DNA of 64,000 nucleotides, taken from NCBI RefSeq assembly GCF_015207825.1, contig NZ_JADEWC010000009.1:1-64000 (forward strand), written 5' to 3'. The position numbers were made by a program, and so were the translations under genes. Positions within the stretch are counted from its first letter, which is position 1. Each line of letters begins with the position of its first letter. This DNA is from Cyanobacterium stanieri LEGE 03274. GTDB lineage: Bacteria > Cyanobacteriota > Cyanobacteriia > Cyanobacteriales > Cyanobacteriaceae. The notes below the pieces were generated by a model. That model ran no database searches, had not been told where the DNA came from, and worked only from the letters and a program-made list of their open reading frames with translations. Shown here one piece after another: positions 6,785-9,844 of the stretch.

Positions 6785-7939
6785 TTAACTAGGAATCATT
6801 TCATTTTTTAAGGCAGAATCTTCGGAAACATCAAAACTATTTAACAAAAGTTTGCCCGAATCAGATTGCTCAATTTGATTGATGATAAATTGAATCATCG
6901 GTTTAGCGATGGTACATTCTAACTTGCCATCTTCATGGTAAACCCGTTCACTGGAAATAGCTTCGGCGATGGGTAATTGATTACAATAACCATAAAAAGA
7001 ACAACTACGACAGTTTTCGGCACGATCTTTACGCACGGAAATAGTATGTTTATATTCGGCACTTTGTTTAATATCCGACAATGATTGACGAAAAATATTG
7101 CCCATCAAACCATCAGGGGAGTAAGCATCTCCATGGCTATAAACATCCCCATTGGTATTGACAATATAAGCCCATTCTTCCCGCTGAGGATCATAAATAG
7201 CCTGTCTTGCCCCTGCTAAATAACGCACTGCGGCTTTAAAATAATCCCAGATGGGTAAAACTTTGATGTTAGTGGGTTGAGCAAATTGAGCCTTGGCTAC
7301 TGCTTGAAGGGCTTTTACAGTTTCTTCGTGGCTCACTAAAATAGGTTCAACCCTTGGGGGTGGATCGTTATGGCTAAAAATGGGTAACATTCTATAGTTA
7401 ATATGCAGGTCATTATAAAACTCATAGCTAGGTAAGACATAATCGATATTTGCTCCGTGAAGTACCATAATGGCGGCAAAAGGAATTTTTCTATCTATCA
7501 GTCGTTGCATATTGTCCAAGACTCGATCTTGAGAGTCATTTCCTTTTATATCTACTCTTTGATTACCGAATACATCAAAGGAGATACCTAGGCTGATGTC
7601 TAATTCTTCTAATAAGTCTAGGGTGGCATCGGAAATCTGTACTAGGTTACTTTGTACGCCGTTGTTATATTCTAAGCCTTCTGCATCTAAATATTTACGT
7701 TGTAGTTCTTTAAAAGCCCGTAAATAACTGTGGGGTAGTAGTAGGGCTTCTCCTCCGTGTAAAACAAAATTGGCGGTTCTATTTTCTGGGGGTTGTGATT
7801 TTAAGTAGGTGGCTAAATTACGGAAGAAAAAATCTAATCCCTCTAAGGGCATTCTTTCTTTGTTGTTTAATTCTTCGTACTCGTAACAGTAGTTACAACG
7901 TAGGTTACAAAGTTTACTCAATTTCATGACAAAGTGCAT
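6785..7939 (-). CDS. Radical SAM/SPASM peptide maturase, possibly cyclophane-forming
   Basis: A 384-residue radical S-adenosylmethionine enzyme. The cluster motif CNLRCNYC (CxxxCxxC, residues 12-19) sits almost at the N-terminus and is followed by YEYEELNNKERMPLEG, the layout seen in SPASM maturases of ribosomal peptides. The C-terminus has a SPASM-type cysteine cluster (ENCRSCSFYGYCNQLP, near residues 309-324, and a further Cys near 353) for auxiliary Fe-S clusters. The start is secure: AGGAGG lies eight bases before the ATG. The gene lies 80 bp behind the Trp-motif protein on the same strand, so it probably modifies that product. I see similarity to the GrrM/OscB and FxsB types but cannot decide the subfamily. 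Confidence 0.85.
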   Translation of the reverse strand: MHFVMKLSKLCNLRCNYCYEYEELNNKERMPLEGLDFFFRNLATYLKSQPPENRTANFVLHGGEALLLPHSYLRAFKELQRKYLDAEGLEYNNGVQSNLVQISDATLDLLEELDISLGISFDVFGNQRVDIKGNDSQDRVLDNMQRLIDRKIPFAAIMVLHGANIDYVLPSYEFYNDLHINYRMLPIFSHNDPPPRVEPILVSHEETVKALQAVAKAQFAQPTNIKVLPIWDYFKAAVRYLAGARQAIYDPQREEWAYIVNTNGDVYSHGDAYSPDGLMGNIFRQSLSDIKQSAEYKHTISVRKDRAENCRSCSFYGYCNQLPIAEAISSERVYHEDGKLECTIAKPMIQFIINQIEQSDSGKLLLNSFDVSEDSALKNEMIPS

Positions 7940-8019
7940 TTTTTATCCTCCTAATTTATTAAAGGTCATGGAAAATAGGAGAAAAAGCCAGGGTTTCTCC
8001 TATCGTTTTAGTATTTAAG

Positions 8020-8721
8020 TTATCGACCAAAATTAGGGTTAATGTTGTTTTGAGGGGTGGTGTTAAATCCTCCTGGTCGAACTGGTGGTCTTAGGGGACT
8101 GTTGGGATCTACGGGGGTTATAATACGGGGAGAGGTGCGATCGTTGTTTATTTGAATCCGATCAAAGCTATCTCTTACACGGGGAGTGCTATTATTATTT
8201 TCTAGGGTACGACGCATTTGGTCATCTCCACTGGCATCCCTTTCCCAAGTGCCTCCTTCTCTCCAACCTGCTTCCGACCAGGGGCCTGCGTCAGGGCCTT
8301 GAGCCCATGTACCTCCTTCGTTCCAGCTTTGACTAATGAGGTTACAGTTAACGATGCAGTCTTTGACTACTTGTCTATTAGTTATTGTGCCATCTTGAAC
8401 GGTGAGGATTTCTCCGTTGGCAAATCGATAAAATCCATCTTGTAAGGGGGTGCGCATAGCGTTTTCGTCTATCTGATAGGCTCGATCGCCTTCTAGTTGA
8501 ATTAGACTTTCTTTTATTTCTTTTACTTGTAAGCTAGGGGCGATCGCACTTTCATCCCTAGATAGGGTTGTATTTTTTGCCGATGCAGATTGAACTATAC
8601 TTTTATCTAAAACTTGAAGTAGTTGACCTGCTAAGCCACTCTGGTGAGCAACGGAAAAACCCGCCACGGCCACTAGGGCAAGAACTATATTTTGAGATTT
8701 GTTATTGGGAGTTTTATCCAT
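8020..8721 (-). CDS. Trp/Gly-motif peptide, putative substrate of the adjacent radical SAM enzyme
   Basis: I do not recognise this 233-residue protein by family with certainty. It has a hydrophobic N-terminal segment (about residues 11-33, signal or anchor), a middle region with CIVNC (Cys122, Cys126), then a short block with five tryptophans (W133, W139, W148, W153, W159) containing WNEGGTW and WREGGTW. The tail (170-233) is rich in Arg, Asn and Pro and looks disordered. Position directly upstream of a SPASM radical SAM gene and the repeated aromatic-Gly motif suggest a ribosomally made, post-translationally modified substrate, as in cyclophane-forming systems; that is inference. It could also be an ordinary exported protein. 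Confidence 0.6.
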   Translation of the reverse strand: MDKTPNNKSQNIVLALVAVAGFSVAHQSGLAGQLLQVLDKSIVQSASAKNTTLSRDESAIAPSLQVKEIKESLIQLEGDRAYQIDENAMRTPLQDGFYRFANGEILTVQDGTITNRQVVKDCIVNCNLISQSWNEGGTWAQGPDAGPWSEAGWREGGTWERDASGDDQMRRTLENNNSTPRVRDSFDRIQINNDRTSPRIITPVDPNSPLRPPVRPGGFNTTPQNNINPNFGR

Positions 8722-8848: not shown

Positions 8849-9844
8849 TTAATTATTTGATGAATTAGATCTTACTTGATCGGCATAATCTTTTGGTTTA
8901 ATTTTTTTATTAGTTTGAAAGATAAATTGGTTAATTTGATAAGGTAAATAGGATAAAGTTTTTCCTATTAAGCTACGATTAGATAAGCCTAAAACTTCTT
9001 CTGCTTCTCTAATTAATCTTCTTCCTTCTTTATTTTGATTATTTTCAATCATTCTCAATCCTAAACATAAATTAATATCTGCGAGTTTTTTATGCCTAAT
9101 TTGTTCTATATTTTGTTGAGCAAAATTATAGGTTTCCAAACAATATTTTTTTGCTTTGAGAAAGTGTAAATTCTGTTTTAAACTATTTTGTTGTCCATGG
9201 AAACGATATTCCATTAAAAATTCAGGTAAAAAATAACCATTCTTCCCTGCTATTGCCATTCTCACTAAAAGATCAAAATCTTCACAACCATCAGCTAAAG
9301 GATTCATATAATCTACTTTTTTTAATGCTTGATAACGAAATAAAGTAGAACCAACTTGTAAACTTTGTAAAACAAAAGTTTGATAAATTAAATCGTCAAT
9401 TACACCTTCTTTTAATTTACTTTTTCCCCATTTATCAGAGTTTTCTTTTGTGGCAATTTCATTTCTATTACTATTAGCATCTATAACCCAATGGTTTGTA
9501 CAAACAAAGTCAACATCTTTATTTTTATCCAAAATCGCAACTGTTTTGGTTAAAAAATCAGGGGTTAAAGCATCGTCATCATCAAACTTAATAAAATATT
9601 CGCCCGTAGCATTTTCAAAACCAGAGCGCATATTTTTACTACGTCCAATATTATTTTTATGACGAATATATTTTATGCGATTATTTTGAAAATTTTTAAC
9701 TATTTGTGCAGTGTTATCCGTTGAACCATCATCACATATAATTAGTTCAAAATCTGAGTAAGTTTGACTTAAAACACTGTTAACAGAATACTGTAAATAA
9801 TCAGATCTATTATATGTAGGGATACAAACACTAACTTTAGGCAT
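8849..9844 (-). CDS. Family 2 glycosyltransferase
   Basis: A 331-residue GT-A fold glycosyltransferase. It starts with the typical PKVSVCIPTYNRSDYL and has the nucleotide-binding acid in ICDDGSTDNT (near residue 37), a DDDD motif in IKFDDDDALTP (near residue 90) that would hold the metal and sugar nucleotide, and a YRFHGQQNS segment near 210 common in GT2 enzymes. No membrane segment is evident, so it is probably cytosolic. Donor and acceptor cannot be read from sequence. It is divergent from another glycosyltransferase (9936-11138), suggesting a small surface-polysaccharide or protein-glycosylation locus. Any link to the peptide cassette downstream is unproven. Confidence 0.88.
   Translation of the reverse strand: MPKVSVCIPTYNRSDYLQYSVNSVLSQTYSDFELIICDDGSTDNTAQIVKNFQNNRIKYIRHKNNIGRSKNMRSGFENATGEYFIKFDDDDALTPDFLTKTVAILDKNKDVDFVCTNHWVIDANSNRNEIATKENSDKWGKSKLKEGVIDDLIYQTFVLQSLQVGSTLFRYQALKKVDYMNPLADGCEDFDLLVRMAIAGKNGYFLPEFLMEYRFHGQQNSLKQNLHFLKAKKYCLETYNFAQQNIEQIRHKKLADINLCLGLRMIENNQNKEGRRLIREAEEVLGLSNRSLIGKTLSYLPYQINQFIFQTNKKIKPKDYADQVRSNSSNN

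Follow-up and report, generated by a model that had tools for sequence, protein, structure and literature searches.

A candidate cyclophane-forming radical SAM/SPASM enzyme paired with a Trp-rich, putatively exported precursor in Cyanobacterium stanieri

Maturases of three-residue cyclophanes (triceptides) join an aromatic carbon of residue i to the beta carbon of residue i+2; described examples link Trp to Arg or Asn (XncB), Trp to Asn or Asp (OscB) and Phe to Ser (MscB) (PMC11002830). For the daropeptide maturase DarE, two [4Fe-4S] clusters in all have been measured (PMC9055067), and a survey of the enzyme family IPR023867 by Kostenko et al. 2022 reported additional pathways marked by Aro-Xaa-Asn and similar motifs (PMC9062424). 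Here we describe a gene pair in a 64,000-nucleotide stretch of Cyanobacterium stanieri LEGE 03274 (contig NZ_JADEWC010000009.1, positions 1 to 64,000; hereafter the window), in which a radical S-adenosylmethionine (SAM)/SPASM enzyme lies directly behind a Trp-containing precursor, its putative substrate. On balance we think it probable that the enzyme belongs to a new, rare and unnamed maturase family that makes three-residue Trp cyclophanes in an exported precursor. Direct support comes from the enzyme superfamily, the gene pairing, the domain layout and a rule for the residue two positions after each Trp (+2).

What the original prediction had read from the letters of the window was confirmed. 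It had described a 233-residue protein with a hydrophobic N-terminal segment, which we confirmed as the open reading frame (ORF) 8020-8721, and in it a five-Trp block containing WNEGGTW and WREGGTW, whose Trp lie at residues 133, 139, 148, 153 and 159. It had placed 80 bp downstream a 384-residue enzyme with CNLRCNYC, an ideal AGGAGG and a C-terminal cysteine cluster; all of these are present, the cluster consisting of C310, C313, C319 and C342. Both genes are on the minus strand, and the 80-bp spacer spans 7940-8019. The features of the locus are as follows.

8020..8721, minus strand: substrate (precursor) gene, a 233-residue ORF; a homologous gene lies upstream of the enzyme in relatives
6785..7939, minus strand: radical SAM/SPASM maturase gene, a 384-residue ORF, assigned from Pfam, NCBIfam, tree and fold model
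8578..8721, minus strand: export-type N terminus of the substrate, residues 1-48, with a hydrophobic stretch, SGLAGQLLQVLD and A-x-A (cleavage context SASA|K), from alignments A3 and A6
8374..8514, minus strand: small beta domain, residues ~70-116, a candidate leader or recognition domain, from the structure model and the A6 invariants
8344..8358, minus strand: CxxxC pair (C122, C126) preceding the core, from the sequence
8233..8331, minus strand: core, residues 131-163, with five W-X-[E/Q/R] units (W133-E135, W139-Q141, W148-E150, W153-E155, W159-R161)
8152..8178, minus strand: follower-like segment VRDSFDRIQ, residues 182-190, 3' of the core, similar to hand-picked group A segments
7974..8004, minus strand: 11-bp intergenic hairpin in the substrate/enzyme spacer, from folding against shuffles
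7947..7952, minus strand: AGGAGG ribosome-binding site of the enzyme, 7 nt before its ATG
7886..7909, minus strand: radical SAM motif CNLRCNYC, enzyme residues 11-18, its cysteines kept in 30/30 clade rows
6914..7012, minus strand: reduced SPASM set C310-x2-C313-x5-C319 ... C342, from 30/30 clade rows and the anSME alignment
8849-9844, same (minus) strand: family 2 glycosyltransferase, upstream of the cassette

When ORFs within 5 kb were clustered at 16 loci (Richelia left out), two families were widely shared, the enzyme at 15 loci and the substrate at 14; the next was found at 3 and the rest at 2, and no transporter or peptidase family was shared between loci. The Bradyrhizobium precursor, which has an unrelated N terminus, and the Nannocystis genes, dropped by the ORF filter, were read by eye, and loci listed under two identifiers (L032/L048, L045/L078, L052/L079, L053/L081, L036/L055) were counted once. 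A Trp-containing precursor lay upstream on the same strand, at 12 to 412 bp, for all 17 enzymes of group A, the tree clade that holds the window enzyme, and for Nannocystis (L061). The two genes also occurred in the same genomes: enzyme profile A2 at 1e-60 matched 14 of the 388 order genomes, with strong hits in 8 (group A, E <= 2.6e-185) and weak ones in 6 (the more distant group B), and profile A6, which covers the substrate N terminus and beta domain, found 8 of 388, the same 8 that hold the close enzyme (the searches used two equal-sized draws of 388 genomes with shared handles). In these genomes the substrate-like gene was not widespread without the enzyme, a pattern that had been named beforehand as telling against the pairing. 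Enzyme and substrate look like a real enzyme-substrate unit, and the Pfam domains together with the pairing support the earlier claim of an enzyme-precursor pair of the type that makes ribosomally synthesised and post-translationally modified peptides (RiPPs).

The cores of these precursors share a positional rule. Our count covered 21 substrate rows (23 minus the near-duplicates from Richelia and G022), 2 of them Trp-less paralogues, with 53 Trp in all; the cut-short, Trp-less L031:10816-11124 was also left out of the counts, and the frame-shifted Nannocystis L060 out of both counts and tree. At +2 we found E 17 times, Q 16, R 7, D 6, L 3, W, C, K and M once each, and N never. E, Q, D or R followed in this position 46 of the 53 Trp (33 with Glu or Gln) against a shuffle mean of 16.8, and none of 5000 shuffles reached as high; at other offsets the same four residues were found in 15/53 (-2), 7/53 (-1), 17/53 (+1), 10/53 (+3) and 7/52 (+4) cases. 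The middle residue of the Trp-X-acceptor unit varied, the window units being W-N-E, W-A-Q, W-S-E, W-R-E and W-E-R in order. Between the window and genome G056 all five Trp and all five +2 residues were kept and two of the five middle residues changed; this comparison did not show the lack of Trp conservation among homologues that had been named beforehand as telling against the idea. The rule also held for 4/4 Trp in Bradyrhizobium, whose leader is unrelated (W-T-Q, W-G-Q, W-A-Q, W-N-R), and for 2/3 in Nannocystis. The Trp block is likely to be the target of the enzyme.

In residues 1-48 of the substrate a hydrophobic stretch is followed by a GLxxQLxxxLD segment and then by a conserved A-x-A, with A48 invariant in all 18 rows of A6, and this layout recurs in Nannocystis (GVADHLLSSLG...AHA). 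It points to an exported protein with A-x-A as a putative signal-peptidase-like cleavage site; the original prediction of a possibly membrane-anchored substrate thus stands as to the hydrophobic N terminus, and its anchoring is better read as export with cleavage at A-x-A. The structure model of the substrate was poor (mean pLDDT, the predicted local distance difference test score, 49). Its only part of fair confidence was residues ~70-116, modelled as five short strands (10-residue means of 67-83 across residues 71-120), in which G96 and Y98 are invariant in 18/18 A6 rows; a fold search with this domain gave a best Z of 3.4 and no Foldseek match at 0.001, which from a poor model is no proof of a new fold. 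The core had a pLDDT under 50 and is predicted to be disordered. The CxxxC pair (C122, C126) before it, present in G056a and G388a1 and absent in G388a2, would probably form a disulphide after export. Trp occurred in all 21 substrate rows from enzyme-bearing cassettes, with none before the end of the beta domain in 18 of them and one at the domain edge in three closely related rows, and two paralogues located away from an enzyme (in G388 and G056) had no Trp at all. These Trp-less paralogues (L041:7005-7634, L042:7423-8025) keep a Y-C-x-G-G-x-C core and are perhaps unmodified or differently modified. For the segment 3' of the core, a matrix built from thirteen hand-picked group A segments gave leave-one-out scores of 12 or more for 11 of the 13 (Bradyrhizobium 4.6, Rivularia 5.6); among 60 control ORFs one scored 27.3 and 5 scored 7 or more, a weak control because these ORFs were incompletely purged of substrates.

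The enzyme contains Pfam Radical_SAM (4e-14) and SPASM (1.2e-5) domains and passed the domain-level SPASM cut-offs (PF13186, 25.9 against 21.5 bits; TIGR04085, 27.6 against 27 bits); the Pfam scan revealed no additional docking domain. Against 55 related models of NCBIfam release 20.0, with scores taken from the best 25 of 55, it reached no cut-off of a specific maturase, and neither did four further clade members, each scanned alone, among the best 25 models. The original prediction had placed the enzyme near GrrM/OscB and FxsB, which these scores do not bear out (TIGR04261, 80.4 bits against 310; TIGR04269, 75.7 against 370). The models closest in score were instead the anaerobic sulfatase maturase (TIGR03942, 110.4 against 349.45), DynA (109.7 against 450), DarW (100.5 against 650) and DarE (92 against 650), all far below cut-off, and identity with a sulfatase or daropeptide/dynobactin maturase was likewise rejected. 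AmcB (76 against 425), YhhB (69 against 445), XyeB (31.5 against 450) and PapB (55.5 against 340) were missed as well; FxsB, YhhB, AmcB and XyeB resemble the window enzyme in being radical SAM/SPASM proteins, cyclophane-forming by NCBIfam name, but it falls far below all four cut-offs.

A full SPASM domain carries a seven-cysteine set for two auxiliary clusters, a set that the window enzyme does not complete. Common to all 30 rows of groups A, B and Nannocystis are the three cysteines of the radical SAM motif plus C310, C313, C319 and C342; further cysteines occur only in single rows and subgroups, the four listed are the only ones of the window enzyme outside the radical SAM motif, and the GrrM pattern is different. 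The predicted fold (mean pLDDT 87) matched best in the PDB to anSME, then to ChlB, a sactipeptide-type thioether maturase (5why) and SuiB, with anSME (4k36) and ChlB (9gm3) ranking first among solved structures by both fold and sequence. Unlike anSME, however, the window enzyme has non-cysteines aligned with the anSME cysteines that we take to be first-auxiliary-cluster ligands, and it misses the TIGR03942 cut-off. The conserved cysteine set, this alignment and the presumed anSME ligands together suggest that the enzyme holds one auxiliary Fe-S cluster instead of two.

In a tree of 38 rows (17 of group A, Nannocystis, 12 of group B and 8 of GrrM), the window enzyme fell within group A (support 96/94), and Nannocystis joined at 100/100 on a long branch; group B, which is more distant, was not a single clade, and GrrM stood apart at the end of a long branch. 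The enzyme is rare: with the window protein alone as query, it was found in 10 of 386 genomes of the phylum at 1e-40. Relatives came from Nodularia, Calothrix, Richelia, Nostoc, Rivularia, Plectonema, Bradyrhizobium uaiense (50% identity) and Nannocystis (34-37%); none was found in plasmids (1e-30) or phages (1e-20), and an initial scan of genome contigs with a single protein as query gave no matches. Bradyrhizobium uaiense (L051:5620-7179) has a group A enzyme with a 122-residue Trp-core precursor that carries neither a signal nor a recognisable beta domain, and probably acquired the cassette by horizontal transfer.

Like GrrM/OscB and its precursor GrrA/OscA (TIGR04261/TIGR04260), the window pair combines a cyanobacterial radical SAM/SPASM enzyme with a putatively exported precursor bearing repeated aromatic-X-X motifs, and three-residue cyclophanes would be expected from both. 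The enzymes nevertheless fall into separate groups divided by a long branch and differ in cysteine pattern, and the window-type substrates use E, Q, D or R as putative acceptors and no N, are not Gly-rich and contain a beta domain. In 10 GrrA-like ORFs of the same order, N or D stood at +2 of 70 of 76 Trp/Phe and E or Q at none, a count that leans towards N/D because the ORFs were picked by an N/D motif. GrrM was found at 1e-60 in 27 of 148 order genomes, and in none of the window's genome, G056 and G054; TIGR04260 had no match in the window's own genome at E up to 1, and the substrate (P0002) matched no NCBIfam family at E up to 1. The separate clade, the acceptors and the cysteines thus bear out the original suggestion of a subtype distinct from GrrA. 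As in triceptide systems, a radical SAM/SPASM maturase adjoins the precursor on which it presumably acts, and the precursor core contains an aromatic-X-acceptor motif, with acceptors that differ in part from those in the accessible text of PMC11002830. Judged by sequence, the pair works like a triceptide system and is a member of no family tested. We did not find the maturase family described in the open-licence literature searched. It could be one of the RiPP clusters that are unassigned in Kostenko et al. 2022, which belong to the same broad enzyme family, but in the accessible part of that survey Asn is named and not Glu or Gln (PMC9062424).

From these data we infer a minimal two-gene RiPP-type cassette in which the spacer hairpin would keep the precursor in excess over the enzyme. 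The enzyme would dock on the precursor in the cytoplasm, probably via the beta domain and perhaps via the VRDxF segment 3' of the core, and 5'-deoxyadenosyl radical chemistry would link the ring of each Trp with the beta carbon at +2 (Glu, Gln, Asp or Arg). As the i/i+2 geometry of known maturases fits the window core, five three-residue Trp cyclophanes would be expected, with a loss of 10 Da, presumably formed in the cytoplasm before export. The modified protein would then leave by the Sec route, be cleaved near A-x-A and, beyond the membrane, function as a rigid peptide or protein rich in Trp. Bond, recognition, export and stoichiometry are the predicted parts of this scheme. Leaders vary within the family, from signal plus beta domain (Cyanobacteria, Nannocystis) through short ones (Bradyrhizobium) to signal-only or Nif11 leaders (group B), and because quite different leaders carry the cores, core plus follower may be what the enzyme reads. 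We advance more tentatively, at somewhat under even chances, the fuller proposal of an undescribed family whose reduced SPASM domain has a single auxiliary cluster and which makes Trp-Glu and Trp-Gln cyclophanes, with acceptor residues that would be new, in long Sec-exported precursors on a folded beta leader, with core and follower, not the leader, possibly being read.

Several observations weigh against cyclophane formation as proposed. Seven of the 53 Trp break the +2 rule (WKL, WEL twice, WSM, WEC, WLW, WNK), and since the substrate rows are related the 53 are not independent trials; a cut-short substrate ORF in the G054 array (L031:10816-11124) has no Trp. Docking through the beta domain does not explain the Bradyrhizobium precursor that lacks one, Glu and Gln are not among the acceptors named in the accessible text of PMC11002830, and the enzyme fold model also resembles enzymes with other chemistry. 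Of the 8 genomes that profiles A2 and A6 each found, 7 had contributed sequences to the profile itself, so the searches may have missed distant cases elsewhere. In addition, the one substrate match outside enzyme-bearing genomes, a weak one in G389 (E 0.0067), proved to be a AWQESGRWREGGESGSWSE block in a 152-residue membrane protein, whose family occurs in 5 of 60 relatives (G389 and four genomes), keeps the block in the three members inspected (G389 and two homologues) and has no confident Pfam or NCBIfam name. The 14 enzyme-bearing genomes of the order include none of these five, and a search of G389, a genome 67% complete, found no enzyme at 1e-10. A Trp-X-Glu block present in genomes without detected enzyme is by itself no proof of modification, and this protein lowered our confidence in the cyclophane reading and raised that in an unmodified repeat. 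The membrane protein family, with its conserved AWxESGxWREGxESGxW block (L043:7743-8198, L118-L121), may represent a folded motif.

It is unlikely, in our judgement, that the Trp block is simply an unmodified folded or binding repeat and that the enzyme has its role elsewhere, such as in sulfatase maturation. A similar block is conserved in the unrelated membrane protein of genomes without detected enzyme, the beta domain weakly resembles choline-binding repeats (Z ~3, not significant), and the sulfatase maturase was narrowly the top model (110.4 bits); yet its cut-off of 349 was missed, enzyme and leader share the same 8 of 388 genomes, and the core is not predicted to fold. The window-type substrates are set apart by their pairing with the enzyme and by the +2 rule, which persists in very different cores including that of Bradyrhizobium. 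We give still less credence to a thioether maturase of the sacti- or ranthipeptide kind acting on core cysteines, with Trp as recognition residues. Cys does follow Trp in several cores (W-L-Q-Y-C, W-I-E-C, W-V-Q-C), and the enzyme shows similarity to PapB (55.5 bits) and to the thioether maturase structure 5wgg, but PapB lies far under its cut-off of 340, and thioether chemistry is made less likely by 6 of 21 enzyme-cassette rows without any Cys after the beta domain (G388a2, G064, G022, Calothrix, Plectonema2, Bradyrhizobium), all 21 having Trp.

Similarly improbable is a daropeptide-like enzyme that makes Trp-O-Trp ethers or longer-span links from Trp to other residues. DynA, DarW and DarE score among the best models, each matching 14/14 members of alignment A4 at 1e-10 with DynA giving the best E-value across them, and Trp is the target there as it probably is in the window substrate; DarE with its two [4Fe-4S] clusters and DarA with its core followed by a follower, as far as the accessible text of PMC9055067 goes, resemble what we propose for the window enzyme and substrate. 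All three cut-offs were missed (109.7 against 450 for DynA), however, no transporter or peptidase gene is common to the loci, and darobactin precursors are much shorter, to judge from the 58-residue numbering in the accessible part of PMC9055067. W-x-W is absent from the window core and occurs once among 53 Trp (G388a1), the +2 residue being mostly polar or charged, which makes a Trp-Trp ether unlikely. If three-residue Trp cyclophanes are indeed the product, the system would add a maturase family without a specific model in NCBIfam release 20.0 (among the best 25 of 55 models) and Glu and Gln as Trp-cyclophane acceptors, which the accessible text of PMC11002830 does not name. It would also offer a simple two-gene cassette whose cores vary naturally in the number of units (one to five), in the presence of Cys and in being single or tandem, so that substrate recognition and acceptor choice could be tested directly by co-expression.

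Group B enzymes (Calothrix, Nostoc and others) accompany precursors whose leaders are simple signals or of the Nif11 type (Nif11 was tested for one and the rest judged by eye). Their cores hold Phe/Trp-X-acidic motifs, with E, D or Q at +2 of 16 of 27 Trp/Phe counted, and most of the precursors end in a P-S-A-V-D-x-F-like sequence. A C-terminal signal common to groups A and B looks likely by eye but failed the matrix test: of 14 group B precursors scored with the group A follower matrix, one stood clearly above shuffles (Calothrix 7103, 2/500), so a common follower is not established. Several group B maturases carry as a fused domain, or have as the next gene, a protein that by eye looks hydroxylase-like (HLDSWD...IHD motifs; L036:7172-11544, which is L055, L052:7181-8092, L053:7218-8129, L059:7264-8151, L058:7157-8107). 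Two of these proteins were scanned and gave no Pfam match; a second tailoring enzyme acting on Nif11 or signal-type precursors is possible.

Within the spacer of the window, the stem of the 11-bp hairpin was equalled in length in 1 of 200 shuffles, and the folding energy of the whole spacer was only modestly low (13/200 shuffles fold as well). The longest stem was matched by <=10/200 shuffles at 10 of 15 loci, with different sequences, and was not unusual at the other 5; the second G054 unit, the G388 inter-substrate spacer, Richelia and the 12-bp Bradyrhizobium spacer were left out of this comparison. Promoter matches were no more frequent than in shuffles, and terminator matches numbered 3 against 1.9. 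The hairpin may act as a partial terminator or form a 3' end, giving more precursor than enzyme.

The family 2 glycosyltransferase that had been noted just upstream on the same strand was confirmed by Pfam scan; as it is common to only 2 of the 16 loci, the window and its nearest relative, we rejected it as a component of the cassette. At 3 of 16 loci, in Calothrix, Plectonema and Bradyrhizobium (L045:7191-7652, L050:7185-7616, L051:4656-5600), the cassette adjoins a YHGS-type protein that matches no Pfam family with confidence, suggesting a third gene shared in this lineage. Two genomes from different families have very long related proteins (1829 and 2033 residues; L034:2617-8106, L040:7540-13641), TamB-like by eye only, in the vicinity of the cassette. 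In G054 (L031:6531-13743) the cassette is expanded to five substrate-like genes in tandem, of which one is cut short and Trp-less, with two near-identical enzymes, and some of the array proteins carry two beta-domain-plus-core units.

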